This document shows positions 8,832-61,195 of a DNA stretch of 64,000 nucleotides, in pieces; within the stretch, counting starts at the first letter, position 1; each line of letters starts with the position of its first letter. The translations under genes were made by a program, and so were the position numbers. Source of the DNA: Anisus vortex (taxonomy: Eukaryota > Mollusca > Gastropoda > Planorbidae). The DNA lies in NCBI GenBank assembly GCA_949126835.1, contig OX421505.1, positions 2,971,587-3,035,586 of the forward strand. The letters are read 5' to 3'. Below the pieces are notes generated by a model that saw nothing but the letters and a program-made list of their open reading frames with translations, did no database searches and was not told the origin of the DNA.

Positions 8832-11800
8832 ATGGAACTGCTGAAATCCTTATGTCATCCAGAGGAAGTAATGGCTATGCTCAAATGGAAACTTTGGGGC
8901 AGTGAAAAGGGGATGTCCGAAAGTGACTTTGTGAGTATAACATTTGTGAGTATAACATTTGTGAGTATAACATTTGTGAGTATAACATTTGTGAGTATAA
9001 CATTTGTGAGTAGAACATTTGTGAGTAGAACATTTGTGTGTAGAACATTTGTGAGTAGAACATTTGTGAGTAGAACATTTGTGAGTAGACCATTTGTGAG
9101 GAGAACATTTGTGAGTAGAAATTTTGTGAGTAGAACATTTGTGAGTAGAACATTTGTGAGTAGAACATTTGCGAGTAGAACATGTGTGAGTGGAACATTT
9201 GTTAGTATAACATTTCTGAGTAGAACATTTGTGAGTAGAACATTTGTGAGTAGAACATTTGTGAGTAGAACATTTGTGAGTAGAACATTTGTGAGTAGAC
9301 CATTTGTGAGGAGAACATTTGTGAGGAAAACATTTGTGAGTAGAACATTTGTGAGTAGAACATTTATGAGTAGAACATTTGTGAGTTGAAATTTTATGTG
9401 TAGATTATTTGTGAGTAGAACATTTGTGAGTAGAACATTTGCGAGTAGAACATTTGTGAGTAGAACATTTGTGAGTAGAACATATGTGAGTAGAACATTT
9501 GTGAGTAGAACATTTTTGAGTAGAACATTTGTGAGTAGAACATATTATGTGAGTAGAACATTTGTGAGCAGAACATTTGTGAGTAGAACATTTGTGAGTA
9601 GAACATTTTTGAGTAGAACATTTGTGAGTAGAACATTTGTTAGTAGAACATTTGTGAGTAGAACATTTGTGAGTAGAACATTTGCGAACATACAACATCT
9701 ATGGGTCACGCTGGCCGAGCGGCAGTGCGTTCGACTGGCGATCCGAAGGTTCTGGGTTCGAATCCTGGTGCAGGTTAGATGATTTTTATCCCGGGATGCG
9801 AGGGTGTCCCTGAGTCTAACCAGTTATGATGGATACTAGTTGGAGTAAAGTAAAGGCAGCTGGGCAATATGCTAACCACACATCACCTAGTATGCCGTGT
9901 ACACAGAAACTTCAACAGCCCTATGGTCAGTTTGGTCCAAAGGGTACTTTACTATTACATCTAGTAGAAATGTATTATTTACCAATGTAACAGAAACACA
10001 TTTTCATATATTTATTATAATTTGTAAATATCAAATGCAAGAGAAAATTTAGGAAAACCAGTAACCTAACATCATTTAAAGCACTTATGAACTCCAAGAA
10101 TTGACCCCTACCACGGATAATCGTAGGACGCAATAATCTTCTTTATTCTTTACTTTTGTAATAGATAAGATAAGAAAAAGCTCCATAGAACTCAACAATG
10201 TAATAAATAACTTTTTTAAAATTGTAAAAGTGTTGCAAATCAAGTCTGGGTTAAATAAAAATAACAGTAAGAAACAAATTTTGAAACTAGGTTAAAAATA
10301 TTTTTTTCTACTTTCAATGTGTTTAGTAATTTAATTTAGATTTTTTTATAATTGCACAAGTTAAATTGCCCGGTGTATAAAAAAGGCCTGTATACGCTAC
10401 ATATAAAAAATGTATAAACTAGAATGAACAAAAAGCTATAAATCTAATAAGTTTACAAAAGTATTATTTTTTACTGTAGACTTTTAGGAAAGCAATTTAA
10501 AATAAATAATTTGATCAGGTTAAAAAATAGGCTAGTCATCTTACTAAAAAAAATCTAAATTGCACAGTGTTGCGCGTAGATTAACAATGTATTTTTTTTA
10601 AAGTCACATTAATTGAAAAAAAAAATAGTAGAAACGAAAAGTAAAGCCTAACCGGATAATAGAACCTGGGTCGCTCGCCAGGCAGTCCGATACGTTTTCC
10701 ACTTACCTAGCGAAGACACATGTCCGACGTGAGATCAATAGAGTATAATTTGAGACAATCAGTTCGCGTCTCTTTGAATGAACTTATATAATTGGTTGAA
10801 CACACACATAGTCTACTTTATATTTGTAGATATATGTTTGATATAATTTGTTCTATGATTTTTTTTACCCTCTCTGTCTTGATAGAGTGGCATGAGCCCT
10901 TCATTGAGGACGTGCTATGATCTGTTGAATAAAACCAGTAAGGGTTTCGCAGGAGTTATACAGACTTTGGATAGTAAGCTCAGGTACATATTACACTAAA
11001 CAAAAACAAAAACAACCCAAAGAGCGATGCCCGCTTCAAACTGTACCGCCAATTTCAAAACATAATTTTCAGACTAATGACTGGTGATAACAGGCTGAAG
11101 CAACATATGTTCCGCAATACTTTGAATTGGAAGCACGCGGAACAGCACCCGAAAATGCGGAACGTGTCCTTCCTGCCTTACCCCCCCCCCCCACTGTACC
11201 AATCTACCTGGTTAGCTATATGACCTTTAGGGCGCTACCTTCAATGGTAAACTGTACGGTGGTCTGGGTCAACTGACAGCCACGACGCAGTTTATTACAA
11301 CTATTGGACTTATCTGAATCCACCATATCATAACTTTTGAGATAGAAGAAGAAAAAACACTTAGTTTCGGAATTTCTGATCGCGCCCTGTCACTCTAGTC
11401 TTCCGGTTTAGTAATTGGCTGTGATTTTCTCAATGGAAAATTAAGATTTAAATTGTATGTTGTATACAGCGGAAGTCTTTAAGGAAATTTAGGAGTCATT
11501 AAAGACAATGTTATTGGCTGTGTTATTGTTATTGTCCTAAACCGGTTTTCGGTTCTATAAAGCCGGTTTAAAACCGGATTACGGTTACCTGTTAATTGTA
11601 ACTGTAACTAAACAATTGGTTTGATGTTGTTTTTATCGCAAGCCAAAGTTGGTATTTGGAAATACAGGAACAACAATATCTAAGACTAAATAGTGTTAGC
11701 AAGGCATTTCAGGAATTGTTTTGTGTGAATCCAACATTATTTATTAAAAAAATATTTCCATTAGAACCAATAAAAAAGGGTATTTTATTTGAAGTAATGG

Positions 11801-14800
11801 TTACCTTCCAACTTCCTACCAACAAACCGAAATCCAGTTTTGAAAATCAAATCCGGTTTTTGCTCTCAAACCGGAATCCGGTATTCTGGTTTTTGTTTAA
11901 CATCCCTACTCTTATTATGTCTCTCTTTCTCTTCCTCTCTCTCTCTTTTGTCTTGTATGTCGTTCAACAAACAAATAACAGAAAACAAATCTGCATTTTC
12001 TACCTTGTGATGCGAGCCCTGGATACAGTTGAGGACGATATGACCATTCCTCTGGATGTTAAGATACCCATGTTGAAATCATTTTACAAGAACCTGACGG
12101 ACCCAGATTGGAAATACACTGAGAGCAAAGATAAAGATAAAATTGTTCTGGAACAATTTCCCAGTGTAAGCATTTTAACTTCAACTATACGGTAGGGGAA
12201 AGATGGGCAGATGTACCGCTGGGCATTTAGTATCTATGCCGTTTTACATATTTTAACTGGTTGTAATTTACATTTAAGCCCGTTAACACATTCCAGCACA
12301 TTAGTTTCGACTTGTTCTTACATTAAAATATTTTTTACTACATTTAGTTTTATTATTGTTATTGTTTTTCCTTAGCAGGTACAAATGTCCTACTTCTCCC
12401 ATATTTGTATGTAGTACCTTATAACTTCATATCTTTGGCTGTTATTATTTATAAATTTGAAATGATTTAGTTTCCTTATAAGTAATATCACTTGACCCTT
12501 ATAAAGTATTTTGAAAGGGAAGACGTAATGTCTTGGCTTTGTTAAATTTAGTAATGAATCTCAGATTTGAAAAATGTTTAATGAATTAACAATAATACAG
12601 TCTTTCTACCACTTGTACCTATCAAAATATCTTTATGCTGTCATGGAAAAAAATACAATGTTAGCTTATGATTCCGAGAATAATCGTAATTTTTTTCAGT
12701 AAGTGAATACATTAAAAATAATTTACAGAGCATTTGCAAACACGTGACAAAAAGCACGTGCTGTTTGTTTACTTTGTCTAGTGGTGACTAGCAATAAACA
12801 CCTCACTTGTACTCAATTATAAGTGGCATATACCTTCTACACTTCAAAACATTTTTACTCCCTCCACCTAAGGAAAAAAAAAATTTTCTTCACTTTATTT
12901 GAATGCTGGCAGATTTCAAAAGAGTTCAGAAAGCTGGATGAGAAGTACAAAAAGATTATCTCTGATGTTTGTAAGGAAATGGGATATGGGATGTGTGAGT
13001 TCCTAGTGAAACAAGTGGACACCATGGCAGATTGGGATAAGGTGAGTTAGATTTAAACCATCAGATTGGGATAAGGTGAGTTAGATTTAAACCATCAGGT
13101 TAGCATTATGTGACCTAGATATCAATCATCAAAATGCGAAACCTTTAGTTGGTTGCAATCATCAGATTGGGATAACTTGACCTAGATTGCAATCATAACA
13201 TTGGGATAACTTGGCCTAGATTGCAATCGTCAGATTGAGATAACTTGACCTAGATTGCTATCATCAGAATGGGATAACTTGACCTATATTGCAATCGTCA
13301 GATTAGGATAACTTGACCTAAATTGCAATCATCAGATTGGGATAACTTGACCTAGATTGCTATCATCAGATTGGGATAACTTGACCTAGATTGCAATCAT
13401 CAGAATTAGATAACTTGACCTAGATTGCAATCTTCAGAGTGGAAGAAGATGGGTTAGAGTAAATATATCTTATTGCTATTGTTAAATCAGATGGTTACTG
13501 TTATATTTACTAATAATTGTTATTGTTATTGTTACAATTGATTATAATTTTAGTTGTTACTTCTCATTGCTATTGTTACATCTGATTGTTATTGTGACAT
13601 CAGCTTGTTATGTTTATTGTTACATCTTATTGTTATTTTTACATCTTATTGTAATGTGGCCTAAATTGCTATTATTAGATTAAGATGGTTTAAAAAAGGA
13701 TACATATTAATTAGGTCTCTGTTTGAATGTCTCAATGATTAGTTAACAACAATTAACCCTAAACTAATTGTCCCATCACAAAAAAAGTACATAATACATT
13801 TTCTTATATACTGAAATATACTGTCATTCTAGTATTGTCACTATGTGGCTGGCCTTGTCGGTATAGGACTAGCAAAAATTTTCTCAGCCTCAGGCCTCGA
13901 AGACCCCATCGTTGGTCAGAACTATCAACTGGCAAATGACACTGGGCTACTCTTACAGAAAACAAACATCATAAGAGACTTCTCAGAAGATTGGAAAGAT
14001 AACAGAATAGTTTGGCCTAAGTATGTAAGTATAGAGATTTGTTTAATTTAAGATAATAGAATAGTTTGGCCCAAATATGTAAGTATAGAGATTAGTTTAA
14101 TTTAATTTGAAAATAGAAAAACAAACTTGTATGCCAATACGAAGAACGTTGTCCACAGTTTTATTCATATTGAGTCATAATTTGGTTCTAAAAGTCGCCA
14201 TAGCTTTGGGGGTGTGGAGGGGGATCTGTGGCAGACTGCGTTGGCTTGGTCATACCAAGCGCTTGTATGATAACCGCAGACCTAAGGAAATCCTGTAGGG
14301 AGAAATGGCAGCAGTATCACGAGCCACAGACCGGCATCTTCTTTGCTACACAAAGATGTGTGTAAGCTGCACCTCAGAAAAACGGGCATAGACGTGGATC
14401 CACTGGAGGAGTTTGTAGCTGACCGATAAGCCTGGCGACAGGCCGTTTGTACTGAGATAACCTCCCAGGAAGCAAAAAGAACCAGTGCACACATTGACAG
14501 ACGGCAGAAAATGAAGACAAAAGCATCCTCCAAACAACCACTCTCGCTGTTGAAATCAGAGGAATGCTCAAGGGACTATCAGTCGAGGATCGGGCTGTTC
14601 AGTCACAGCAAGCACTGTCCCTCATTAGAACATTAAGGGCACATCCATTGTCTTGTGAGAGAGATAGGAGCCATATAAAAATGTGTTAATTTTCAGACAC
14701 TACTAAAAAAATTGAAAACTATTAGGCATTGTCGATATAATCCGGCATCAAATGGCTAAACTGAATATTCCAGGCTCATGTCCTTTAAAAAAAGGTATGG

Positions 14801-17262
14801 TCTGCACTCCAATATATTTTTTATTGTCCCCTGGCAGATGCAAGAAATAAATTGATGGAACGAATCGGTGACAGGTAGCCCGCACATTTAGTATAAAGCA
14901 GTGATTTGTCCAGTTCAAACTAAAATATTGAGAAATTAATTTCATACCTTGTTCTATAAAAATTAGAAACTGCTACAAACAAATCTCTAAAACGTTTATG
15001 GCTTTTAGCTATTCATAAAATTGTAACAAAATTAATGTGATTTTGTTTTTAGTAATGTTTTTAAAATGTTGGTTCTAACTGTGTTTTTCTCCACAGGCTT
15101 GGATCAAATATGCCGAGGACATTGGAGAATTCACCAAGTTAGAGAACCAGGCTAAGGCAGTACAGTGTCTCAATGAACTGATCACCAACGCTCTGGACCT
15201 GATTCAATCGTCTCTGCAGTTTTTGGGCATGCTGAAGAACCAGAGGCTTTTTACTTCTGTGGCAATAACGCAGGTATTTTTCCCAATGCTATTATTCTCT
15301 TTTATCTTTGTTTACATAAATTGATGTTTACATCTTCCTGTCATCCTGCCTGGCTTGGGCCGGGTTATTGTTTCTGGTGTGTTGTTGTTTTTTTGTTTTG
15401 TTTTTCTGTTAATATACAATTTAAATTTAAATAAAGATAAGCAAACGTAAGAAAGTCTTTGATAAGAGAATTATTTCAAATAAGTGTGTAAAGCATTTAT
15501 AAAATTAGTCTTGACGGTGGATAAATATATAATTAAACAAATTTAAAAAAGGGTAGCATTTCTTATCTTATATATTACAGAGGCTCCTTCTATAGAGACG
15601 ATTACTGCGTGCTACGCTCATACCTGGTCCTTGTATAGTCTTGTATTTTTATAAACAATATTTTGCAAAGTAAATACTAAAAAGGCCTAGTAGCCGACGG
15701 GTACTTTACTTCCTACCCTACATCCTACATATCCCGTAGTCTGTTGGACCGTTGTGGCACCACAGATGACATGTACACCAGCCTCCTCCATTCCTGCCGT
15801 CTCTCAGCCTTTCGTCGCACAGTTTTATTCCTGTCCACTCCCTGATGTTGTCCTCTCATCGTTACTTTTGTTTTCCTCTCTTTCTCTATCCTCTCGTGGT
15901 GCCCTACAGAATGGTTTTGGCAAGCCCGTTGGTTCTAGTGACGTGGCCATACCATTCCAGTTTCCTTTTCTTGACTGTGGCCAGCAGGTCTTTACATTTT
16001 CCAACTTCCTGAAGTATTCTTTTTAGTATTTGTTCATTGAATCATACTTTACTTTGCCTTTATATAAGCGACTAAATTGTTAGTTGTTTACAACGTAAAC
16101 AACAAAAAAAAATTATGTTTGGAGAACTCTGGTTTAAAACACTAATTTAAAATGCTCCTTTCTTACTTCAAGAACTTATATCAAAGCATGCGCCATCAAG
16201 GATACTGAGCTCTTCATCACAGTCAATCCTTAAAACTCCCAGTGTGGCTGGACACAAAAAGTACATAGGATTGCGCTCATTTGAATCTGTGGCGCCTTCT
16301 ATATGGAACAGGTTATCTCATACACTGAGAGAATCTGACACAAGAAAGCATTTTAAAAAGTGCTTAAAGATCTTTCTCTTTGGCTAGTGGATGTGTGATA
16401 TACATGCTAATACAACTGGCTCTACAATTCGCACCGATATTGAACTGAGCGTGCTAAATTTAATACCATTATTATTATTAGTTAATGTTTGTAAACTATA
16501 ATAAAGTCAACTATCATTGCTCTTGTTTATTGTTGCAGGTCGTTGCCATAGCCACCCTGGAGCGCTGCTACAACAACTTAAATGTTTTCACAGGCGTGGT
16601 CAAAATACGCAAGGGGGAAGCAGTTCGCTTCTTGTTGTGGGCCACTTCCTTAGAGAAAGTAAAGGCCATCATGAAACATTATACTCTACAGGTTGGTGTA
16701 ATATTTGTTGAGTTTACGTTGCATAGTTTTCTGTAAGAACCATGCAGTAATGGAATTACGAATGCACACGACACATGTCACATTGTTCCTTCTTCTCAAT
16801 ACTGCTTTGCTTGAACTATGCATTATAGGCCTATTACCACACAACCATCTGCCGTGGCCACAGAAACTGGTGAACGCTGCTTCTGTGGATCAATGTGGTC
16901 CGTCGGGATACTTTACTTTTCCTTTTATCACAGTTAGAGGTCCATATTATTGTAGTTTTTGTTTAAACATATATAAAAACATCAATTACAGTCATTACTT
17001 ATCTTTCATCATATAATAAAATACAATCCTGTAAACATTGATACTTTTCTGTCAACAGATTATTGACAAAATTCCAAGTGATGATCCAAACAGTGCCAAG
17101 ACAAGTGCCATTTGTCAGAAAGTCTTAGAGCTGACAGACACTCAGCAAGTGTACACTACCTTGAGTATGTTCCCAACTTTGTATGTCAGCCTAGGATTGT
17201 TGACTGTCATCTCATACACATATTGGTCACAGATAACTCAGTGGTACGAGGACATGCTTTAG
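8832..17262 (+). CDS. FDFT1: Squalene synthase (farnesyl-diphosphate farnesyltransferase), complete 8-exon gene
   Basis: Condenses two farnesyl diphosphates to squalene via presqualene diphosphate with NADPH, the committed step to sterols; the family is ER-anchored. Exons: 8832-8930, 10886-10983, 11982-12165, 12913-13041, 13833-14024, 15097-15273, 16539-16691, 17059-17262. They total 1236 nt (411 codons plus TAG). All junctions have GT-AG and the phases agree. The human protein is 417 residues and the numbering lines up: first Asp-rich motif DTVEDD at 80-85, YCHYVAGLVGIGL at 171-183, QKTNIIRDFSED at 212-223 with the second DxxED at 219-223. NELITNALD and YNNLNVF-GVVKIRKGEAV follow. A hydrophobic C-terminal anchor (LYVSLGLLTVISYTYW) lies near residues 384-399. 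The start was chosen because MELLKSLCHPEE matches the family N-terminus. Exon 1 runs directly into a minisatellite made of its own donor. All catalytic blocks look intact, so the gene is probably functional. Confidence 0.95.
8931..9690 (+). repeat. 15-bp minisatellite made of the FDFT1 exon 1 splice donor
   Basis: About 50 copies of GTGAGTAGAACATTT (GTGAGTATAACATTT in the first copies). The first GTGAGT is the exon 1 5' splice site itself. The unit is divisible by three, and the exon 1 reading frame stays open through about 30 copies, to a TGA ending at 9389, as VSRTF/VSITF pentapeptides. The antisense strand is also largely open. Copy variants include GAGGAGA, GCGAGTA and TTTTTGAG. Confidence 0.95.
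9703..9958 (+). mobile_element. tRNA-derived SINE (family C), near full length
   Basis: It lies in FDFT1 intron 1, directly after the minisatellite. The head is GCTGGCCGAGCGGCAGTG with B box GGTTCGAATCC. The body runs through GAGGGTGTCCCTGAGTCTA, GGAGTAAAGTAAAG and CTAGTATGCCGTG to TTTGGTCCAAAGGGTACTTT. It is the best-preserved family C copy in the window. Confidence 0.9.
10040..10180 (+). mobile_element. LINE family A 3' end
   Basis: In FDFT1 intron 1. AACATCATTTAAAGCACT corresponds to the NITSFKAL codons of the ORF2 C-terminus. It is followed by a CGTAGGACGCAATAATCTTC 3' UTR and an AGATAAGATAAG tail. Confidence 0.7.
10355..10860. mobile_element. Dispersed repeat R1 with a tRNA-like block
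   Basis: Shares ordered blocks with 54935-55470: TGCCCGG, GGCCTGTATAAGCTAC, AGCTATAAAT, AGGAAAGTAAATT, GATCGGGTAAAAAATAG, then an inverted tRNA-like block near 10660-10720 (minus strand CTAGGTAAGTGG and GGTTCTA). It ends near GAACACACACATAGTCTAC. Partial copies are at 33040 and 62110. No coding capacity, so probably a non-autonomous element. Confidence 0.6.
10995..11340 (+). mobile_element. LINE family C fragment
   Basis: In FDFT1 intron 2. The plus frame reads FRLMTGDNRLKQHMFRNTL, the common post-RT F-R-L-x-T-G-H-N-R-L motif of LINE ORF2, followed by a degraded GC-rich stretch with a poly-C run. The copy at 34400-34700 has the same block (RHNRLKQHKFHTI). Confidence 0.65.
11350..11525 (-). 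mobile_element. MITE M1, internal part
   Basis: In FDFT1 intron 2. It matches the interior of the element at 35615-35912 in reverse complement: TTTCGGAATTTCTGATCGC, AGACTTCCGGTTT-type, GTTGTATACAGCGGAA, GTCATTAAAGAC, TTATTGGCT. Both terminal inverted repeats are absent. Confidence 0.75.
11536..11915. mobile_element. Possible hAT-type non-autonomous element
   Basis: A region dense in ACCGGTTTT / AAAACCGG motifs in both directions. It is bounded on the right by GTTTAACATCCCTA, which reads TAGGGATGTTAAAC in reverse and resembles hAT termini, and on the left by GTCCTAAACCGG. No clear 8-bp target duplication. It abuts the exon 3 acceptor region, and an open frame through it into exon 3 is fortuitous. 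Confidence 0.4.
13042..13445 (+). repeat. 34-bp minisatellite starting at the FDFT1 exon 4 donor
   Basis: The exon 4 end plus donor (GATTGGGATAAGGTGAGTTAG) is repeated exactly 34 bp downstream, placing a second AAG|GTGAGT at 13076. Further units then decay to GATTGGGATAACTTGACCTAG with ATTGCAATCATCA. About eleven units in all, so the array appears to derive from the exon-intron junction. Splicing at the second donor would run through an in-frame TAG. Confidence 0.85.
13455..13660. repeat. Degenerate TTATTGTTA-rich low-complexity tract
   Basis: Irregular repeats of ATTGTTATTGTTACATC in FDFT1 intron 4. No further function seen. Confidence 0.6.
13997..14100 (+). repeat. 54-bp tandem duplication of the FDFT1 exon 5 donor
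   Basis: The exon 5 end with donor (AGAATAGTTTGGCC...TATGTAAGTATAGAG) is present twice, with donor GTs at 14025 and 14079. The second copy has small changes (GATAATAG, CCCAAATAT). Using the second donor would read into an in-frame TAA at once, so the upstream donor is the coding one. Confidence 0.85.
14205..14690 (+). mobile_element. LINE family D 3' fragment
   Basis: In FDFT1 intron 5. The plus strand reads LRWLGHTKRLYDNRRPKEIL, a broken DVCKRD-like region, an alanine/Arg-rich part and a final SRIGLFSHSKHC-type end. A 3' UTR follows with CATCCATTGTCTTGTGAGAG and AGATAGGAGCCATAT. The same 3' UTR end occurs alone at about 37676-37720. Confidence 0.7.
15550..15660 (-). mobile_element. LINE family A 3' end
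   Basis: In FDFT1 intron 6. Inverted tail: TTATCTTATATATTACAG, then GACG, TTATTGCGT and CTACGCTCAT on the plus strand. Confidence 0.65.
15715..16000 (-). mobile_element. LINE ORF2 C-terminal fragment (WYGHV type)
   Basis: The minus strand reads LLATVKKRKLEWYGHVTRTN, then GLAKTIL, a stop, and a decayed EDNIREWTG block ending near VPQRP-like codons (CCACAACGGTCCAACAGACT). This is the same class of C-terminal block as in the TIR elements at 36219 and 52031. The antisense open frame is a shadow. Confidence 0.7.
16175..16482 (+). mobile_element. LINE family B 3' end with (ATT)n tail
   Basis: In FDFT1 intron 6. The plus frame reads GLRSFESVAPSIWNRLSHTL and then ESDTRKHFKKCLKIFLF-stop, the classic LINE C-terminus (A-P-x-x-W-N-x-L-P...F-K-x-x-L-K-x-x-L-F). 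The 3' end is TAATACCATTATTATTATTA. Confidence 0.75.
16835..16925 (+). mobile_element. SINE family C tail fragment
   Basis: In FDFT1 intron 7. It has TGCCGTGGCCACAGAAACTG, GTGAACGCTGCTTC, TGTGGTCCGTCGGGATACTT, lacking the tRNA-like head. Confidence 0.7.
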
Positions 17263-22344: not shown

Positions 22345-22605
22345 CTGGAAATGCATGGTGGCCGAGTATCAGCGCGTATCTGAATCCGAAGGTCCTGGCT
22401 TCGAGACCTGGTGGAGGCTAGGATTTTTTCCCCAGGACATGAGAGTGTCCCTGAGTCTACCCACTGGCAATATAGTTGGAGTAAAGTAAAGACGGCTAAG
22501 CATTGTGCTTGGCCACACATCCCTTAGTATGCCGTGGCCACAGACGGTGAACGCTGCTTCACCGCCCTATAATCAACTTGGCCGAAGGGTACTTTATCTT
22601 ATTTT
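22345..22605 (+). mobile_element. tRNA-derived SINE (family C)
   Basis: Head GGTGGCCGAGTATCAGCGC, degraded B box GGCTTCGAGACC, then GAGAGTGTCCCTGAGTCTAC, GGAGTAAAGTAAAG, TTAGTATGCCGTGGCCACAG and GGCCGAAGGGTACTTTA. It lies just upstream of the 52-bp satellite. Confidence 0.85.
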
Positions 22606-22721
22606 TAAGTTATTATTGGGAAATTCAACGTGATCAATTATTGTAATCAAAAGTGTTTTCCTGCTCCCTCAACAGCAAGTTGATAGTGATCAACACAATA
22701 GCACCTTAATCGAAAGTTTGT

Positions 22722-25700
22722 ATAAGGGTTTCATTAACCATTGCATACACAAGTATTGTTCTTTGTTGATTGTATAAGGGTTTCATTAACCATGGCATAC
22801 ACAAGTATTGTTCTTTGTTGATTGTATAAGGGTTTCATTAACCATTGCATACACAAGTATTGTTCTTTGTTGATTGTATAAGGGTTTCATTAACCATTGC
22901 ATACACAAGTATTGTTCTTTGTTGATTGTATAAGGGTTTCATTAACCATTGCATACACAAGTATTGTTCTTTGTTGATTGTATAAGGGTTTCATTAACCA
23001 TTGCATGCACAAGTATTGTTCTTTGTTGATTGTATAAGGGTTTCATTAACCATTGCATGCACAAGTATTGTTCTTTGTTGATTGTATAAGGGTTTCATTA
23101 ACCATTGCATACACAAGTATTGTTCTTTGTTGATTGTATAAGGGTTTCATTAACCATTGCATACACAAGTATTGTTCTTTGTTGATTGTATAAGGGTTTC
23201 ATTAACCATTGCATACACAAGTATTGTTCTTTGTTGATTGTATAAGGGTTTCATTAACCATTGCATACACAAGTATTGTTCTTTGTTGATTGTATAAGGG
23301 TTTCATTAACCATTGCATGCACAAGTATTGTTCTTTGTTGATTGTATAAGGGTTTCATTAACCATGGCATACACAAGTATTGTTCTTTGTTGATTGTATA
23401 AGGGTTTCATTAACCATGGCATACACAAGTATTGTTCTTTGTTGATTGTATAAGGGTTTCATTAACCATGGCATACACAAGTATTGTTCTTTGTTGATTG
23501 TATAAGGGTTTCATTAACCATGGCATACACAAGTATTGTTCTTTGTTGATTGTATAAGGGTTTCATTAACCATTGCATACACAAGTATTGTTCTTTGTTG
23601 ATTGTATAAGGGTTTCATTAACCATTGCATACACAAGTATTGTTCTTTGTTGATTGTATAAGGGTTTCATTAACCATTGCATGCACAAGTATTGTTCTTT
23701 GTTGATTGTATAAGGGTTTCATTAACCATTGCATACACAAGTATTGTTCTTTGTTGATTGTATAAGGGTTTCATTAACCATTGCATACACAAGTATTGTT
23801 CTTTGTTGATTGTATAAGGGTTTCATTAACCATGGCATACACAAGTATTGTTCTTTGTTGATTGTATAAGGGTTTCATTAACCATGGCATACACAAGTAT
23901 TGTTCTTTGTTGATTGTATAAGGGTTTCATTAACCATGGCATACACAAGTATTGTTCTTTGTTGATTGTATAAGGGTTTCATTAACCATGGCATACACAA
24001 GTATTGTTCTTTGTTGATTGTATAAGGGTTTCATTAACCATGGCATACACAAGTATTGTTCTTTGTTGATTGTATAAGGGTTTCATTAACCATGGCATAC
24101 ACAAGTATTGTTCTTTGTTGATTGTATAAGGGTTTCATTAACCATTGCATACACAAGTATTGTTCTTTGTTGATTGTATAAGGGTTTCATTAACCATTGC
24201 ATACACAAGTATTGTTCTTTGTTGATTGTATAAGGGTTTCATTAACCATTGCATGCACAAGTATTGTTCTTTGTTGATTGTATAAGGGTTTCATTAACCA
24301 TTGCATACACAAGTATTGTTCTTTGTTGATTGTATAAGGGTTTCATTAACCATTGCATACACAAGTATTGTTCTTTGTTGATTGTATAAGGGTTTCATTA
24401 ACCATGGCATACACAAGTATTGTTCTTTGTTGATTGTATAAGGGTTTCATTAACCATTGCATACACAAGTATTGTTCTTTGTTGATTGTATAAGGGTTTC
24501 ATTAACCATTGCATACACAAGTATTGTTCTTTGTTGATTGTATAAGGGTTTCATTAACCATGGCATACACAAGTATTGTTCTTTGTTGATTGTATAAGGG
24601 TTTCATTAACCATGGCATACACAAGTATTGTTCTTTGTTGATTGTATAAGGGTTTCATTAACCATGGCATACACAAGTATTGTTCTTTGTTGATTGTATA
24701 AGGGTTTCATTAACCATGGCATACACAAGTATTGTTCTTTGTTGATTGTATAAGGGTTTCATTAACCATGGCATACACAAGTATTGTTCTTTGTTGATTG
24801 TATAAGGGTTTCATTAACCATGGCATACACAAGTATTGTTCTTTGTTGATTGTATAAGGGTTTCATTAACCATTGCATACACAAGTATTGTTCTTTGTTG
24901 ATTGTATAAGGGTTTCATTAACCATGGCATACACAAGTATTGTTCTTTGTTGATTGTATAAGGGTTTCATTAACCATTGCATACACAAGTATTGTTCTTT
25001 GTTGATTGTATAAGGGTTTCATTAACCATGGCATACACAAGTATTGTTCTTTGTTGATTGTATAAGGGTTTCATTAACCATGGCATACACAAGTATTGTT
25101 CTTTGTTGATTGTATAAGGGTTTCATTAACCATGGCATACACAAGTATTGTTCTTTGTTGATTGTATAAGGGTTTCATTAACCATTGCATACACAAGTAT
25201 TGTTCTTTGTTGATTGTATAAGGGTTTCATTAACCATGGCATACACAAGTATTGTTCTTTGTTGATTGTATAAGGGTTTCATTAACCATTGCATACACAA
25301 GTATTGTTCTTTGTTGATTGTATAAGGGTTTCATTAACCATTGCATACACAAGTATTGTTCTTTGTTGATTGTATAAGGGTTTCATTAACCATGGCATAC
25401 ACAAGTATTGTTCTTTGTTGATTGTATAAGGGTTTCATTAACCATGGCATACACAAGTATTGTTCTTTGTTGATTGTATAAGGGTTTCATTAACCATGGC
25501 ATACACAAGTATTGTTCTTTGTTGATTGTATAAGGGTTTCATTAACCATGGCATACACAAGTATTGTTCTTTGTTGATTGTATAAGGGTTTCATTAACCA
25601 TGGCATACACAAGTATTGTTCTTTGTTGATTGTATAAGGGTTTCATTAACCATGGCATACACAAGTATTGTTCTTTGTTGATTGTATAAGGGTTTCATTA

Positions 25701-26148
25701 ACCATTGCATACACAAGTATTGTTCTTTGTTGATTGTATAAGGGTTTCATTAACCATGGCATACACAAGTATTGTTCTTTGTTGATTGTATAAGGGTTTC
25801 ATTAACCATTGCATACACAAGTATTGTTCTTTGTTGATTGTATAAGGGTTTCATTAACCATTGCATACACAAGTATTGTTCTTTGTTGATTGTATAAGGG
25901 TTTCATTAACCATGGCATACACAAGTATTGTTCTTTGTTGATTGTATAAGGGTTTCATTAACCATGGCATACACAAGTATTGTTCTTTGTTGATTGTATA
26001 AGGGTTTCATTAACCATTGCATACACAAGTATTGTTCTTTGTTGATTGTATAAGGGTTTCATTAACCATGGCATACACAAGTATTGTTCTTTGTTGATTG
26101 TATAAGGGTTTCATTAACCATGGCATACACAAGTATTGTTCTTTGTTG
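22722..26148. repeat. 52-bp satellite, about 66 copies
   Basis: Near-identical 52-bp units containing TTGTATAAGGGTTTCATTAA and GCATACACAAGTATTGTTC. Units differ mainly at three alleles: CATTGCATAC, CATGGCATAC and CATTGCATGC. The order of these alleles repeats in blocks of about 10-11 units, indicating recent higher-order duplication. Non-coding. Confidence 0.95.
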
Positions 26149-26174
26149 ATTTTTAAAATTCTTCTACTATTGAA

Positions 26175-26943: not shown

Positions 26944-27045
26944 ATAGGGCACGGTAGCCGACCGGTGATCCTAGAGTCCTGGGTTCGAATTCTGGTGGAG
27001 GCTAGGATATTTTCCCCGGGATTTGAGGGTGTCCCTGAGTAGAAT
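26944..27045 (+). mobile_element. SINE family C head fragment
   Basis: GGGCACGGTAGCCGACCGG with B box GGTTCGAATTC, and GAGGGTGTCCCTGAGTA; truncated before the tail. It forms an inverted pair with the copy at 27088-27340. Confidence 0.75.
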
Positions 27046-27087: not shown

Positions 27088-27340
27088 TAAGTAAAGTATC
27101 TCGTCGGACCAAATTGATCCATAGGGCCGGTGAAGCAGTGTCCACCAGTTTCTGAGGCCACGACATACTAGGTGATTGTGTGGCCAACACTAAGCCTTTA
27201 CTTTACCTCAATGAAATTAAGTCCTATGAGAGCTGGGTAGACTCAGGGACATCCTCCAGACCAGGGATAAAAATCATAACCTGAACCAGGATTCGAACCC
27301 GGGACCGTCGGTACGCCAGCCCGGCCACCGTGGCCCTTGT
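27088..27340 (-). mobile_element. tRNA-derived SINE (family C)
   Basis: Inverted, near full length. On the plus strand it reads TCGGACCAAATTGATCC, GACATACTAGGTGA, TTTACTTTACCTC, CTCAGGGACATCC, then the inverted B box GGATTCGAACC and GGCCACCGTGGCCC. Confidence 0.85.
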
Positions 27341-28189: not shown

Positions 28190-31100
28190 TCGACTCTCCC
28201 ATATACCTGCAATGTCGTGGTGGCTCTCCCATAAACCTGTAATGTCGTGTTGGCTCTCACATATACCTGCAATGTCGTGTTGGAACTCACATATACCTGC
28301 AATGTCGTGTTGGAACTCACATATACCTGCAATGTCGTGGTGGCTCTCCCATATACCTGCAATGTCGTGTTGGCTCTCCCATATACCTGCAATGTCGTGT
28401 TGGTTCTCCTATAAACCTGTAATGTCGTGTTGGCTCTCACATATACCTGCAATGTCGTGTCGGCTCTCCCATATACCTGCAATGTCATGTTGGCTCTCCT
28501 ATATGCATGCATTGTCGTGTTGACTCTCCCATATACCTGCAATGTCGTGTTGGCTCTCCCATATACCTGCAATGTCGTGTTGGTTCTCCCATATACCTGC
28601 AATGTACTGTTGGCTCTCCCATATACCTGCAATGTCGTGTAGGCTCTCCCACATACCTGCAATGTCGCGTTGGCTCTCCCATATACCTGCAATGTCGTGT
28701 TGGCTCTCCCATATAAGTGCAATGTCTCCCTGTTGGCTCTCCAATATATCTTCAATGTCTCCCTGTTGGCTCTCTCATATACCTGCAATGTCTCCCTGTT
28801 TGCTCTCTCATATACCGGCGTTGTCGTGTTGGCTCTCCCATATACATGCAATGTCTCCCTGTAGCTCGCCCATATACCTGCAAAGTCTCCCTGTTGGCTC
28901 TCCCATATACCTGCAATGCCTCCCTGTTGGCGCTCTCATTTACCTGCAATGTCTCCCTGTTGGCTATCCTATATACCTGCAATGTCTCCCTGTTGGCTCT
29001 CCCATATACCTGCAAAGTCTCCATGTTAGCCGTCCCCTATAAGTGCAATGTCTACCTGTTAGCTCTCCCATATACCTGCAATGTCTCCCTGTTGGCTCTC
29101 TCATATACCTGCACTGTTTCCCTGTTGGATCTCCCATATACCGGCAATATCGTGTTGGCTCTCCCATATACCTGCAATGTCTCCCTGTAGCTCGCCCATA
29201 TACCTGCAATGTCTCCCTGTTGGCTCTCCCATATACCTGAAATGTCTCCCTGTTTGCTCTCCCATATATCTGCAATGTCTCCATGTTGGCTCTCCCATAT
29301 ACCTGCAATGACTCCCTGTTGGCTCTCCCATATACCTGCAATGTCTCCCTGTTTGCTCTCCCACATATCTGCAATGTCTCCATGTTGGCTCTCCCATATA
29401 CCTGCAATGACTCCCTGTTTTATCTCACATATACTTGCAATGTCTTCCTGTTGGCTCTCCTAAATACCTGCAATGTCGTGTTAACTCTCCCATATACCTG
29501 CAATGTCGTGTTGGCTCTGCCATATAACTGTATTGTCGTGTTGGCTTTCCCATATACCTGCATTGTCTCCCTATAGCTCGCCCATTTACCTACAATGTCT
29601 CCCTGTTGGCTCTCCAATATACATGCAATGTCTCCCTGTTGGCTCTCTCATATACCGGAAATGTCTCCATGTTGGCTCTCCCATATACCGGCAATGCCGT
29701 GTTGGTTCTCCCATATACCTGCAATGTCTTTCTGAAGCTCGCCCATATGCATGCAATGTCTCCATGTTGGCTCTCCTATATACCTGCTATGTCTCCCTGT
29801 TGGCTCCCCCATATACCTGCTATGTCTCCCTGTTTGCTCTCACATTCACCTGCAATGTCTCCTTGTTGGCTCTCCCATATACCTGAAATGTCTCCCTGTT
29901 ATCTCTCCCATATACCTGCGAAGTCTTCCTGTTAACTCTCTCTTATATAAGTGAAATGTCTACCTTATAGCTCACCCATATACCTGCACTGTCTCCCTGT
30001 TGGCTCTCTCATATACCTGCAATGTCTCCTTTTTGGCTCTCCCATATACCTGCAATGTATCCCTGTTAGCTCTCCCATATACCTGCAATGACACTCTGTA
30101 GCTCGCCCATATATCTTCAATGTCTCCCTGTTGGCTCTCCCATATACCTGCAATGTCTCTCTGTTTGCTCTCCCATATACCTGCAATGTCTCCCTGCAGC
30201 TCACCCATATACCTGCAATGTCTCCCTGTTGGCTCTCCCATATACCTGAAATGTCGTGTTGGCTCTCCCATATACCTGTAATGTCGTGTTGGCTCTCCCA
30301 TATACCTGCAATGTCGTGTTGGCTCTCCCATATACCTGCAATGTCGTGTTGGCTCTCCCATATACCTGCAATGTCGTTTTGGCTCTCCCATATACCTGCA
30401 ATGTCTCCCTGTTGGCTCTCTCATATACTTGGATTGCCTCCCTGTTGGCTCTCCCATGTACCTGCAATGTCTCTCTGTTGGCTCTCCCATATACCTGCAA
30501 TGTCGTGTTGGCTCTCCCATATACCTGCAATGTCGTGTTGGCTCTCCCATATACCTACACTGTCTTCCAGTTGGCTCTCCCATATACCTGCAATGTCGTG
30601 TCTGCTCTCCCATATACCTGCAATGTCTCCATGGCTCTCCCATATACCTGCAATGTCTCCCTGTTGGCTCTCCCACATACCTGCAATGTCTCCCTGTTGG
30701 CTCTCCCATATAAGTGCAATGTCTACCTGTTAGCTCTCCCATATACCTGCAATGTCTCCCTGTTGGATCTCTCATATACCTGCAATGTTTCCCTGTTGGA
30801 TCTCCCATATACCGACAATGTCGTGTTGGCTCTCCCATATACCTGCAATGTCTCCCTGTAGCTCGCCCATATACCTGCAATGTCTCCCTGTTGGCTCTAT
30901 CATATACCTGCAATGTCTCCCTTTTGGCTCTCTCATATACCTGCAATGTCTCCGTGTTAGCTCTCCCATATACCTGCAATGACTCTCTGTAGCTCGCCCA
31001 TATACCTGCAATGTCTCCCTGTTGGCTCTCCCATATACCTGCAATGTCTCCCTGTTTGCTCTCCCATATTCCTGCAATGTCTCCCTGTAGCTTACCCATA

Positions 31101-31722
31101 TACCTGCATTGTCTCCCTGTTGGCTCTCCCATATACCTGCAATGTTTCCCTGTTTGATCTCCCATATACCTGCAATGTCTTTCTGTTGGCTATCCCATAT
31201 ACCTGCAATGACTCCCCGTTTTCTCTCACATATACCTGCAATGTCTCCCTGTTGGTTCTCCCATATACCTGCAATGACTCCCTGTATGCTCTCAAATATA
31301 CCTGCAATGTCTCCCTGTTGGCTCTCCCATATACCTGCAATGTCTCCCTGTTGGCTCTCCCATATACCTGCAAAGTCTCCCTGTTTTCTCTCCCATATAC
31401 TTGCAATGTCTCCCTGTTGGCTCTCCCATATACCTCAAATGTCGTGTTAGCTCTCTCATAAACCTGCAATGTCGTGTTAACTCTCCCATATACCTGAAAT
31501 GTCGTTTTGGCCCTGCCATATACCTGTATTGTCGTGTTGGCTCTCCCATATACATGCAATGTCGTGTTGGTTCTCCCATATAACTGTAATGTCGTGTTGG
31601 CTCTCCCATATACCTACAATGTCGTATTGGCTCTCTCATATACCTGCAATGTCGTGTTTGCTCTCCCATATACCTGCAATGTTGTGTTGGCTCTCCCATA
31701 TACATGCAATGTTTTCCAGCAG
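28190..31722. repeat. 30/33-bp minisatellite, about 110 units
   Basis: Units are CATATACCTGCAATGTC plus either GTGTTGGCTCTCC (30 bp) or TCCCTGTTGGCTCTCC (33 bp), with a shorter TCCCTGTAGCTCGCC form. Both lengths are multiples of three and rarely contain stops, so long open frames arise on both strands (up to 397 codons on the minus strand). These are by-products. The array lies where intron 3 of the minus-strand ICK gene should continue. Confidence 0.95.
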
Positions 31723-40189: not shown

Positions 40190-41480
40190 ATTTAGCAGAT
40201 TTCGTTACATTATATAAGAACAAAGGGGACCGCAGCGACTTCAAAAAGACAGGAATCTCCCTTTTGAGCATAGTTGGTAAGATCCTTGCAAGAGGCACTA
40301 TCAAGGCTGCAGGTGCTGTCATCTAGAGTCTATCCAGAGTCTCAGTGCGGTTTCAGAAGCGACTTATCCACTATAGACATGATCTCCTCCATTCGACTGC
40401 TACAAGAGAGGTTCCGCGAGATGAATAAGCCATTATACATTGCTTTCGTTGATCTCACTAAAGCATTTGATATGGTCAGCAGAAGTGGACTCCTTAAACT
40501 CCTGGCAAAAATAGGATTCCCTCCAAAACCGCTCTCTTTCATTGCCTGTTTTTTTTTAGAAAACCAGGTCCACAGTGAAGTTTAATCAGAGCCCTTTGAA
40601 GTCCGCAGCGGTGTTCAACAAGACTGCGTACTTGCACCCACCTTGTTTGGAATATTCTTCTCGTGTCTACTGTACTATGCTTATGGAGACTGCAACGAGG
40701 GTGTCTACCTTCACACAAGCAGATCTGGAAAGCTCTTCAATCTAAACAGGTTCAAAGCCAAAATCTCAAGCAGTGTTCTCCTAGATGGAGAGATTAATAG
40801 TAGAATAGCTAAAGCCATGGGCACTATGGCAAGATTTAACAAAAAAAAAAACGAGTTTGGATGAACTCACTGCTCACACGCTCCACTAAGTCGCCAGTTT
40901 ATCGAACATGCGTTCTGATTACCCTGCTGTACGGCTGTGAGACATGGAGCACATATTCCTGGGAGGAGAGAAAACTGAACACCTTTTACCTTAGGTGTCT
41001 CAGACTCATTTTAGATATAAGATGGCAGGACAGGGTTTCAATCGCAGAGGTCCTACGAAGAGCAGAGTGTCAAGACATCCGTAATACTCTCAGTAACAGA
41101 CGTCTCAGCTGGCTAGGTCATGTACGCCGAATGCCACAGGGTCGACTTCCACAGGACATTCTATATGGAACGTTAGCTTTGGAACAGAGACCTGCTGGAC
41201 GTCCAAAACTGAGATTTGCGGATGTCTGCAAAAGAGATATGAAACAACTCCAAATTGACCCAAACAGTGGGGAGATCATGGCGCAGGATAGGCCCACTTG
41301 GAGGGCAGGAATCAAAGAAGGTTTCAGGCTTGCGGGAGAGGAGCACGCCAGGAAAAAGACAGTGGAGAAAAATGTGGTCCACTCCGCTACATTCAACTGC
41401 AGCTAGTATGACCGTGCCTGTACGTCCAGGATTGGCCTCTTTAGCCACATGAGGGCCTGCAAGGGAAATGAATCGTCTCT
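40190..41480 (+). pseudogene. LINE family D ORF2 (reverse transcriptase), internally deleted
   Basis: In order it shows GISLLSIVGKILARG, YPESQCGFRSDLSTIDMI, LYIAFVDLTKAFDMVSR (catalytic domain A), VRSGVQQ-like and QDCVLAPTLFGIFFS (frame broken), GKLFNLNRFKAK. It then jumps to LLDGEINSRIAKAMGTMARF, LLYGCETWS, RRLSWLGHVRRMP, RPAGRPKLRFADVCKRDMKQ and a SRIGLFSHMRACKG end. The jump near 40757 removes the F/Y-A-D-D catalytic block, and several frameshifts follow (near 40575 and 40860). It is inserted antisense into a hAT transposase. The clade was not assigned. Confidence 0.85.
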
Positions 41481-41509
41481 CGAGACGTAAAATGCCGACG
41501 AATGTGCTG

Positions 41510-41640
41510 AACGATCGCTCCACCGAACATGTTGTTGCTGGTAAGGTTAGCAAAACAAGTAAGGCATTCCTGACAGCTGGATAAAACTTTGTAAAAGGTA
41601 ACAAGTCGATGAAATCTTGGCTACTTTTGTATTCTCGCGT
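41510..41640 (-). pseudogene. hAT transposase dimerisation-domain segment
   Basis: The minus strand reads TKFYPAVRNALLVLLTLPAT then TCSVERSFSTF, the hallmark start of the hAT C-terminal dimerisation domain. It continues only after the LINE insertion, at 39350. The N-terminal BED-like and catalytic regions of the transposase are missing from the element. Confidence 0.8.
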
Positions 41641-42519
41641 TTTCCGAAAATCAAACTAACTCAAGGCTTCACTATCAAAATTATCAATGTGGTATACCTG
41701 ATTAATCCCCAAAGATAATGAGATCGATATGACAATGGAAGGAGTCACAGTTGTTAAAATTAATTATAAATGTTTTAATTATTAATTTTTTTGTCTATTT
41801 TAGTCCAAAATTTTTTTTTTCTATAACTCGGGGGGGGGGACACTTTTCCAGGGGGGGGGGCAAGTGCCCCCCCTTGCCCCCCCCTGCGGGCGCCCATGAA
41901 TCGGATACGCTATCTACGCGTCAATCTTACCATTGCCCCCCCCCCTCTTTTTACAATCTCGTGAGGAGTTGCAACCTAACTTGTTGTCTTTTAACATGTA
42001 ATGTAAGTTAGATTTACGTCAGTCTGACTGAAGGAGCCGCGAGGACTGGGACGCCCTGAGCTCCGGTAGTAAAGAGACTGACTTAAGGGTGCGCCTGACA
42101 CGCGGCCCTGAGTATGTATTATATATGGTTTATGCCTACTGTATTGGATTATATCTGTTCAGCTAATGATTCATTTACCAATGACATTCATCATGGAATA
42201 CATATTTTTATGTGAATAAAAATCACCAGTGTGCTACACTTCGCCTTGCTTTGATTTATATAATACGTGTATGTGTGATTCCAGTAACAGTGTTAATATA
42301 TCAACAGTTTTTAACTCAACCTACGTATTGATAAATTTTGTCTTAAAAATCATTTAGAAATCATCAGCACAACGGGACCTAAATACTCCTAGAAAACCTG
42401 CCATTTTTACCCCTCCCCATCAACTGTGTACCTGCTCAGTTATTCACTAAGTCTGCACTGAGCCTATGCTAATTAAAGGATCTGTGACGCATCAACTTAG
42501 ACTAGCACGTCACTTATGT

Positions 42520-42745: not shown

Positions 42746-43044
42746 CTACTTTGATTAAGAAAGATCATTATGAATAGATCTACAGATCTTGTTATAGCCT
42801 TAAATTTAAGAAATGTGAACTGATTGTAATTCCAATTGTATAGCTGTAAACGTGTGTCCGGGATTAATGTTTTGCCACAGTTTTGGACACCCATTTCTAA
42901 AAGGTTTAGAGGTTAACATCTCAATCCACCAAACGAAACAATTCCTCATTTCCTTGTTTGTAAAAAAATATATAGAAGAAAGCCAAACAGTTTTTTTTTA
43001 AATTTGTTACTGTAGAAAATAATGACTGAGTGTAATCAAATACT

Positions 43045-44592
43045 ATAAATAGATGGACCAAAGACTATAATAAGATGGACCAAAGACTATAATAAGATGG
43101 ACCAAAGACTATAATAAGATGGACCAAAGACTATAATAAGATGGACCAAAGACTATAATAAGATGGACCAAAGACTATAATAAGATGAACCAAAGACTAT
43201 AATAAGATGGACCAAAGACTATAAATAGATGGACCAAAGAAAATAATAAGATGGACCAAAGACTATAATAAGATGGACCAAAGACTATAATAAGATGGAC
43301 CAAAGACTATAAATAGATGGACCAAAGAAAATAATAAGATGGACCAAAGACTATAATAAGATGGACCAAAGACTATAATAAGATGGACCAAAGACTATAA
43401 TAAGATGGACCAAAGACTATAATAAGATGGACCTACGACTATAATAAGATGGACCAAAGACTATAATAAGATGGACCAAAGACTATAATAAGATGGACCA
43501 AAGACTATAATAAGATGGACAAAAGACTATAATAACATGGACCAAAGACTATAATAAGATGGACCTATGACTATAATAAGATGGACCTACGACTATAATA
43601 AGATGGACCAAAGACTATAATAAGAAGGACCAAAGACTATAATAAGATGGACCAAAGACTATAATAAAATGGACCAAAGACTATAATAAGATGGACCAAA
43701 GACTATAATAAGATGGACCAAAGACTATAATAAGATGGACCAAAGACTATAATAAGATGGACCTACGACTATAATAAGATGGACCAAAGACTATAATAAG
43801 ATGGACCAAAGACTATAATAAGATGGACCAAAGACTATAATAAGATGGACCTACGACTATAATAAGATGGACCAACAACTATAATAAGATGGACCAAAGA
43901 CTATAATAAGATGGACCAAAGACTATAATAAGATGGACCAAAGACTATAATAACATGGACCAAAGACTATAATAAGATGGACCTACGACTATAATAAGAT
44001 GGACCTACGACTATAATAAGATGGACCAAAGACTATAATAAGAAGGACCAAAGACTATAATAAGATGGACCAAAGACTATAATAAAATGGACCAAAGACT
44101 ATAATAAGATGGACCAAAGACTATAATAAGATGGACCAAAGACTATAATAAGATGGACCAAAGACTATAATAAGATGGACCAAAGACTATAATAAGATGG
44201 ACCAAAGACTATAATAAGATGGAACAAAGACTATAATAAGATGGACCAAAGACTATAATAAGATGGACCAAAGACTATAATAAGATGGACCAAATACTAT
44301 AATAAGATGGACCAAAGAATATAATAAGATGGACCAAAGACTATAATAAGATGGACCTAAGAATATAATAAGATGGTCCAAAGACTATAATAAGATGGAC
44401 CTACGACTATAATAAGATGGACCAAAGAATATAATAAGATGGTCCAAAGACTATAATAAGATGGATAAACTACTATAATAAGACGGAGCAAAAAAATATA
44501 ATAAAATGGACCAAAGACAATAAGAAGAGGGATCAAAGAGTATAATAAGATGGGCCAAAGATCATATTTAGATGGACCAAATAATATAATAA
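43045..44592. repeat. 22-bp satellite, about 70 copies
   Basis: Unit ACCAAAGACTATAATAAGATGG. Variants (CCTACGAC, AAATAGATGG, AACATGG, AGAAGG) recur with a 418-bp (19-unit) higher-order period, for example AGAAGGACC near 43621 and 44039. The unit equals the terminal repeat of MITE M1. Confidence 0.95.
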
Positions 44593-44599
44593 GATGGAC

Positions 44600-46400
44600 C
44601 GAAAATCAATATATGTTTTGACCGATACCGAAATTGAACCGAGCGTGAAGAGCTGTACAAGACCTTCCAATGGTTCCTGTCCATTCCACCACAGTTACTT
44701 GCTCGGGTTGGTGCTGCGTGGATTCTTGCATGCGCCGATATTTGATAAATTGTTTGCGGACATATTCCTTTGTGATAATCAAAACACTGTTGAAATATCT
44801 CGTTTCAAGGACCCCCGACCTTTCTCTGGAGATTATACCTGAAAACAGATATCATCAGAGATCTCATTAGTCAAATATTCAAACAGGCGGAGATTCTCTC
44901 GTATTGTTAATTGATCTTTAGCCTGTTTAGCGCCGCAATAGTTTGTGCTATTCTGTGGAGAATGTATGGCTTTGAGCGTTTGTCTGATAAGTGTTCAGTT
45001 GCATACATTTTTACCCTTGACCATATTTGCTGATAGACAGATCTAAAGCATTTAATCTCTAATAAAAAAAACAGAAACATGTCTGAGAAAACATAGTCTT
45101 GTCGGGAAGCTGCATCATGTAAACTTCAGTTCTAATTAAAGAATGTGCCATCATTATGACTAATAAAATAGTATGTGCCAAAAGTGTGATGTCCTATGAC
45201 TTTCCCCATGTTTAGCGCCTTTTTATAGAATAATTGTTTATAGAAAATGAGAAAGTCTTTTTAACATTGCCAAACTTATATTATTTAAGTTACAACTTAA
45301 ATTATTGTATACAATCAGTATTTATAGTTGCATTTAAATTCTTTTTAAAAAGCATGAACATTTTTTTTTAATTATATAAACGTATTGTTCAAGTTTTTTT
45401 TTTTTCCAATATTGTGAACCAAGAACTTTAAGGTTCATAAATATATGTTTTTACTTTTTGTTTATTATGTTTCATTTTAAAATAATATGATAAATCTATG
45501 AGCAGACTTTTTTTTTGCTGGGTGGTGAGTGAAATGGTAATAATATTTACTAATACACCTAATATTTACTTCATATAAATGTAAAAAATATATTTTTAAA
45601 AAATATTTCGGCCTGGGATACTACCATAAAAGTGTCAATTGATTGATTTTTAGAACTTAAATGATAGGTGGATGCACTTAACCTGCACTTTAACACTTAT
45701 AAATCTGATTCAGTTCAAAGCATTTAACGGAAAAACAAGAAAAACTAACTGACCCAGTATAAATTTACACGGAACCACTTGTTGCTACTGTCCCACTTAT
45801 GGGACGTTTTTTTAAAACGTCAATATATAAAAAAAATTTCAATTTAAAGAAAAATCAAAAATCACTCGTGGCCCAAGAACCAAATAATATGCCTATCAAA
45901 AAATGAACAAAATTCTCACGACCTCATCAGAATCTGGGTTAATGATAGCACCTTCTGTCTTGGACTCGAACTTATATACAACACGACACGGTCTTTTTAT
46001 TAAAGGTATTATTTATTTCATACTTAAAGATCTTTGAAAATAACATTATAATTAATCTTAAACATCAATGAAACTAATTTATTAACATCTAGAACTAAAA
46101 AAATCCTCTCGAATAAATGGCTTTTAAGTAGCAAAAAATAATTAAGTTTAATCTTATATTCCTAAAATTTTAAATTAAAAAAAATAGGTTTAATTAGAAA
46201 TTATAGAGAGCGTCCTGAACATGTTGCATAGGTCTTACAGCGTCACCGCTTCACATGCATATATATTTTAGTACTTCCATAGATGATTTCCTGAACGATA
46301 AACAAACAGTTATTTTAATTTTCATTTTAAATAAAGAAACAATAATTTCTAGACTGACTTAGTTCGATATTTTGTGTTAAGAATACAAGGTAGAATGTCT
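44600..46400. other. Intergenic, nothing recognised
   Basis: 44600-44870 is less AT-rich and holds an 82-codon open frame starting MDRKSIYVLTDTE with no recognised domain. The rest is AT-rich with homopolymer runs. Confidence 0.4.
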
Positions 46401-48612: not shown

Positions 48613-48850
48613 GTATAATAAGATGGACCAAAGATTATAATAAGATTGACCAAATATTATAATAAGATTGACCAAATACTATAATAAGATGGATCGCTTG
48701 CTTTGATATCTCTGCTATTTGATGACTCGAAATCTTCTGTTTCGGAATTTCCAATCTCACTTGGACTTATAGACTTCCGGTTTTGACTTCCGCTATGATT
48801 TTATCAATGGAAAGCTAATAAACTTTATCTATCCCAGTTGCAAGTTGTTG
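48613..48850 (-). mobile_element. MITE M1 with a four-unit tandem terminus
   Basis: About 3-4 copies of the 22-bp unit (TAATAAGATGGACCAAAG...) run without a break into the MITE interior: GGATCGCTTGCTTTGATATC, GTTTCGGAATTTCC, GACTTCCGGTTTTGACTTCC, GATTTTATCAATGG. The other end is missing. Confidence 0.8.

Positions 48851-53007: not shown

Positions 53008-61195
<8,188 letters not shown>

Follow-up and report, generated by a model that had tools for sequence, protein, structure and literature searches.

The squalene synthase gene (FDFT1) of the snail Anisus vortex carries a 15-bp tandem repeat at the end of its first exon, and the 5´ splice site of intron 1 lies inside the repeated unit. We consider it likely that this is a boundary minisatellite, a 15-bp unit with the exon 1 donor repeated 50 times into intron 1, from which the first, exon-side donor is selected while the remaining copies are removed as intron. 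In the mechanism we propose, a unit spanning the end of exon 1 and its donor would have been amplified to 50 copies reaching into intron 1, the spliceosome would pick the donor at 8931, and the downstream donor copies would leave with the intron. The exon-side copy would be taken at all of the duplicated donors of the gene, a first-copy rule that we infer, and any low-level in-frame isoforms, carrying n × 5 additional residues ahead of the catalytic core, would probably be tolerated. All positions given here are those of the 64,000-nt stretch of contig OX421505.1 that was analysed as a whole (the window).

The gene was read as eight exons on the plus strand, spanning 8832–17262, with 411 codons without an internal stop and seven introns that all have GT/AG ends. 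The coding part of exon 1 occupies 8832–8930 (33 codons, phase 0, defined by the ORF), followed by exon 2 (10886–10983), exon 3 (11982–12165), exon 4 (12913–13041), exon 5 (13833–14024), exon 6 (15097–15273), exon 7 (16539–16691) and the coding part of exon 8 including the stop (17059–17262). Seven of the eight exons were located by tblastn using a human FDFT1 sequence as the query, while exon 1, which lies outside the tblastn table, was read directly from the sequence. The 411-aa protein obtained with the first donor is identical to the human FDFT1 query at 206 of 411 residues, and the first gap in their alignment comes near the C-terminus. The top protein matches came from snails, Biomphalaria glabrata and Bulinus truncatus (72% in the search and 73% in the alignment), and both are named squalene synthase or farnesyl-diphosphate farnesyltransferase. 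For the alignment (A1), the window protein was combined with 22 relatives chosen from 120 matches listed of 5557; the remaining aligned gastropods show 55–66% identity to the window protein (54% at the lowest in the search). A FastTree tree of the 23 A1 proteins joined the window protein to that of Biomphalaria (0.82) and this pair to Bulinus (0.998), a placement to be taken with caution given the long branch. Both Asp-rich motifs retain their acidic residues (D80, E83, D84 and D219, E222, D223). On the strength of full-length homology and of both Asp-rich motifs, the predicted gene is squalene synthase, and the initial annotation was right in naming both the gene and its exon 1 donor.

The array was detected by TRF at 8928–9684 on the plus strand (period 15, 50.3 copies, 91% matches), and a unit table divides it into 50 units with the consensus TTTGTGAGTAGAACA, in agreement with the approximately 50 units annotated earlier. 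The array had been described as starting exactly at the exon 1 donor. The donor, a canonical exon-side GTGAGT at 8931–8936 (U1 duplex −7.4 kcal/mol), does lie inside unit 1, but the array begins 3 nt inside exon 1, and unit 1 includes the last three exonic bases (TTT). It had also been stated that every unit contains a consensus GTGAGT; we found this hexamer in only 36 of the 50 units, with GT kept in 43 and 24 units perfect. Units 1–5 are identical to each other and carry an ATA variant in place of the AGA of most other units, and unit 42 (9543–9560) has a 3-bp insertion that preserves the frame register. The 50 near-identical units in one array are far beyond chance, and the 36 GTGAGT in its 757 bp compare with 71 GTRAGT on the same strand of the whole window. 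A search of the window for the unit outside the array, allowing two mismatches at most, yielded a single dispersed copy, at 61059 on the minus strand. We infer that the array grew outward from the exon-intron boundary, and the earlier phrase of an amplified splice donor is a fair description.

The phase (0) is maintained when 8930 is joined to exon 2 at 10886, as had been claimed. Reading from exon 1 into the array, the first in-frame stop is a TGA in unit 31 (9387–9389, plus strand), which confirms the earlier estimate of a frame open for about 30 units, to 9389. Scripted splicing at each of units 1–31 preserved the whole ORF, again as anticipated; 23 of these in-frame units have GTGAGT and 28 have GT, and 13 further GTGAGT units are located past the TGA. 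The translated units read VSI/RTF with variants, corresponding to the VSRTF-like pentapeptide proposed initially, and with 33 codons in exon 1 the insertion point would indeed fall near residue 33. The open frame is, however, expected by chance. A random 15-mer beginning with GTGAGT in the phase of exon 1 was stop-free in 0.81 of trials, and after 35 random substitutions, with all changes equally likely, the first stop came no earlier than unit 31 in 0.61 of trials. A period divisible by three is, by reasoning rather than computation, a one-in-three event. The sequence and length of the unit account for both the open frame and the 15-nt period, without selection. The 35 substitutions relative to the array consensus comprise 29 nonsynonymous, 5 synonymous and 1 nonsense change, compared with 34:10:1 among the 45 possible changes to the unit consensus, and 15 of the 35 fall in the donor columns, where 14 are expected (binomial p = 0.73). 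Neither coding constraint nor donor-column conservation was detected in these 35 substitutions, a weak test given that there are only 19 distinct change types, many of them spread by copying, and that the counts are non-independent. Two candidates, that the array is coding sequence under selection and that its donor columns are conserved, were rejected on these counts.

Two other donors of the gene, neither of them mentioned in the initial annotation, are also duplicated. A 34-bp array detected by TRF at 13028–13442 (plus strand, 12.2 copies) begins within exon 4, 14 nt 5´ of the exon 4 donor at 13042, which it covers, and a 54-bp × 2 duplication, also from TRF, at 13996–14105 (plus strand) begins 29 nt 5´ of the exon 5 donor at 14025 and places a second copy at 14079. 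In the exon 4 array, GTGAGT is present only in the first two units (13042 and 13076), which are identical, leaving 2 GTRAGT sites in 12.2 copies; the later units mostly share a donor-less version, with TTGACC or TTGGCC found eight times. The second exon 4 donor has the same 11-mer and the same U1 energy as the first (−10.7/−10.7), and the exon 5 donors, with GTAAGT in both copies, are likewise equal in U1 energy (−7.3/−7.3). Splicing at the second copy would add 34 nt at exon 4, leading to a stop after 172 aa, 2 codons past the junction, and 54 nt at exon 5, leading to a stop after 242 aa, 8 codons past the junction. Since the gene has a full ORF and the second copies would truncate it, first-copy use is suggested at both exons. 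Such a rule would agree with the “oriented scanning” that is reportedly seen for the intron 7 repeats of human F7. If the gene were decaying, the argument that the protein must be intact would be weaker.

At exon 1, the comparison with other proteins is consistent with use of the first donor. The join is gapless at the residue 33/34 junction relative to human and to all 22 relatives in A1; in a second, wider alignment, of 38 proteins, P0017 carries one additional residue at this point, and P0026 does not extend across the junction. Phenylalanine (F) occupies position 33 in Biomphalaria, Bulinus, Aplysia, Bradybaena and Lymnaea, leucine in Physella and tyrosine in two sacoglossans. As F is common at this position in the relatives, the TTT of unit 1 is probably the old exon end. 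The exon 1 donor is weak on its exon side (TTT) and modest in U1 energy (−7.4). Among the other 35 GTGAGT units, the U1 energies are −7.1 to −7.4 for 33 and −6.6 and −5.5 for the remaining two, and these near-equal values suggest that the competition among donors is close. Competing models of donor choice, based either on scanning or on U1 together with SR proteins and hnRNP A1, are named in two papers (PMC8724738, PMC2423196). In our analysis, these models would not decide which copy wins at FDFT1 exon 1. With the first donor taken, the array is most likely neutral for the protein, and as far as the sequence can tell, the present analyses lend no support to the use of many donors.

As a boundary minisatellite, here in a mollusc, the FDFT1 donor array appears to belong with the mirages and with the F7 and IFI6 repeats, and not to be a new form of gene control. 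As in the mirages of amphioxus (Adh3, the globins BflGb6 and BflGb9, TnC and PGBD5), the repeat unit of the FDFT1 arrays spans an exon-intron boundary, and splice signals are found in many but not all units: 36 of 50 units for exon 1, 2 sites for exon 4 and both copies for exon 5. The snail gene differs in its lineage, in having three separate repeats, one of them of 50 units, and in being affected on the donor side only, whereas the BflGb6 mirage duplicates an acceptor boundary. The amphioxus mirages are reported to leave regular splicing undisturbed (PMC3087553, PMC3902484). Intron 7 of human F7 is reported to contain several 37-bp repeats, of which the first holds the donor, and only the most upstream one is used normally (PMC6627357). 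The FDFT1 donor similarly lies in the first of a series of highly homologous repeats, and use of the most upstream one would be expected; first-donor use is reported for the 37-bp F7 units and is conjectural for the 15-bp in-frame units of the snail. The minisatellite of human IFI6 (6-16, G1P3) has a 12-nt unit, is sited at an exon end and gives rise to in-frame isoforms, and the exon 1 array of FDFT1 shares with it donor-like units that begin at the exon end. In IFI6, two downstream units are reported to be used as donors, giving three mRNAs (PMC4526556), and first-copy use is therefore not universal. Downstream use and the resulting isoforms are described for IFI6; in FDFT1, a different gene in a different phylum, they would be hypothetical. 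In human duplicated genes, minisatellites at boundaries are described as able to change splice sites (PMC2812944), and the boundary repeats are considered in that context as an origin of new introns. Intron 1 of the snail gene, by contrast, joins residues that are adjacent in the relatives, and so intron gain by tandem duplication is not needed. The 15-bp VNTR of miR-137 was set aside as a precedent, as the available text reports new donors in exon 3 and does not place them in repeat units. No gastropod example of a donor minisatellite was present among the matches listed, in a literature with few subscription papers.

A length-variable isoform generator is a possible reading of the exon 1 array, though less likely than first-donor use. 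We regard as unlikely the version in which several of the 23–28 usable donors are active and, as in human IFI6, n copies of VSI/RTF follow residue 33. It draws on the ORF preserved by units 1–31, on the U1 energies of the 23 in-frame GTGAGT units (−7.1 to −7.4 in 21, −6.6 in one and −5.5 in one), on the three IFI6 mRNAs and on the position of the insertion. In the structure predicted for the Biomphalaria protein (mean pLDDT 88.5, 69 for residues 21–30), residues 21–32 are coil, 33–35 a three-residue helix turn, 36–37 coil and 38–50 the first core helix, such that added residues would fall in the linker before this helix and would probably be tolerated. The insertion point also coincides with the start of seven distinct crystallised squalene synthase sequences, which we read as human and which match only from query residue 29–33; others match from residue 38, and 7wgh spans 2–373. 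Isoforms with extra residues after 33 would in this sense be conceivable. Against active downstream donors, neither the frame nor the donor columns of the array are conserved, the duplicated donors of exons 4 and 5 would require first-copy use, and the 22 aligned relatives, which are not known to carry the array, have no inserted residues. It is also conceivable, though very improbable in our judgment, that the array acts as a decoy or U1-recruiting element, in which 36 U1-complementary sites hold U1 snRNP and raise expression or block premature polyadenylation. The density of GTGAGT relative to the window would fit this role, but the donor columns show no conservation, with 15 of the 35 changes falling in them, and the exon 4 array has kept donors in only 2 units.

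The preferred reading, a boundary minisatellite with its first donor in use, also has to be weighed against the possibility that an array abuts a donor by chance in a minisatellite-rich genome, which we consider improbable. The background density of arrays in the window is high, with 17 selected TRF arrays making up 19.6% (19.8% for 20 arrays, when three short ones are added). Tandem repeats cover three donors out of the seven in the gene; all seven acceptors are free of them, and acceptor-side duplication was rejected on this basis. Of the four merged arrays in the gene, three have their start no more than 30 bp 5´ of a donor that they also cover, a result equalled by 11 of 200,000 random placements (4e-5 in a repeat run). 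The corresponding values were 1.1e-3 with a 15-bp limit (2/4), 5.5e-4 with a 60-bp limit, 3.4e-4 for unmerged arrays (3/6) and 4.9e-4 with the nested TRF row (3/7), whereas for merely covering a donor p was 0.049 with merged arrays and 0.070 with unmerged ones. The strength of the enrichment at donors varies with the definition used. Chance is further opposed by the presence in one gene of three different repeat families, each containing the gene's donor. The GTRAGT form is confined to the three duplicated donors among the seven, no more than a hint at n = 7. The broader proposal, that in this snail lineage tandem amplification proceeds preferentially from 5´ splice sites, making boundaries a general minisatellite nursery and the exon 1 array a copy-number-variable donor ladder for squalene synthases with n extra pentapeptides before the catalytic core, seems to us doubtful. 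A further account, compatible with the preferred one and held only tentatively, is that the gene is a duplicated or decaying squalene synthase subject to weak constraint, in which splicing errors are cheap and boundary arrays accumulate. With Aplysia as the outgroup, a relative-rate test gave 70 private changes in the window protein versus 16 in Biomphalaria (chi2 34), and across the seven outgroups tried chi2 was 14–34 against Biomphalaria and 12–36 against Bulinus; the branch lengths are 0.34 for the window protein and 0.08 for Biomphalaria. The residues otherwise invariant among squalene synthases are not all kept, with 15 of 113 positions that are invariant in the 22 relatives (one gap allowed) changed in the window protein, compared with 0–6 changes at such positions (of 98–104) in each of the other 22 proteins. 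The changes include F288S, at a phenylalanine that we take to be important for catalysis. Judged by its predicted protein, the gene is evolving unusually fast, and it may represent a paralogue or a copy with relaxed constraint, in which case boundary arrays would be cheaper to bear. Decay is countered by the 411 stop-free codons, the seven GT/AG introns and the intact acids of both Asp-rich motifs.

Other repeats are present in the window. Directly 3´ of the exon 1 array, blastn with the plus-strand interval 9701–10000 as the query (matches at 9701–9953) revealed a tRNA-like repeat, which we read as SINE-type, with further copies in the window at 22384–22596, 27090–27319, 625–821 and 26959–27040. 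ARAGORN found no tRNA gene in the window, and no Rfam family reached its gathering score there. A 64-bp array of 6.8 copies at 891–1330 has seven GTRAGT sites. Longer arrays were detected by TRF at 22718–26151 (52 bp × 66, at 99%), 28194–31712 (33 bp × 110.7) and 43037–44600 (22 bp × 71), and a 22-bp repeat with the common TATAATAAGATGGAC occurs again at 48614–48693. A fragment of a hAT transposase dimerisation domain (Pfam PF05699) lies on the minus strand at 41173–41655.

With 36 intact donors in 50 units, mostly near-equal in their match to U1, and two additional duplicated donors in the same transcript, the FDFT1 gene offers a naturally occurring test case for how the spliceosome chooses among alike 5´ splice sites, whether the first, the last or a spread of them. 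Its arrays suggest that boundary minisatellites are not confined to chordates, and they may bear on how such arrays originate and on whether they can supply genes with new exon sequence or introns.
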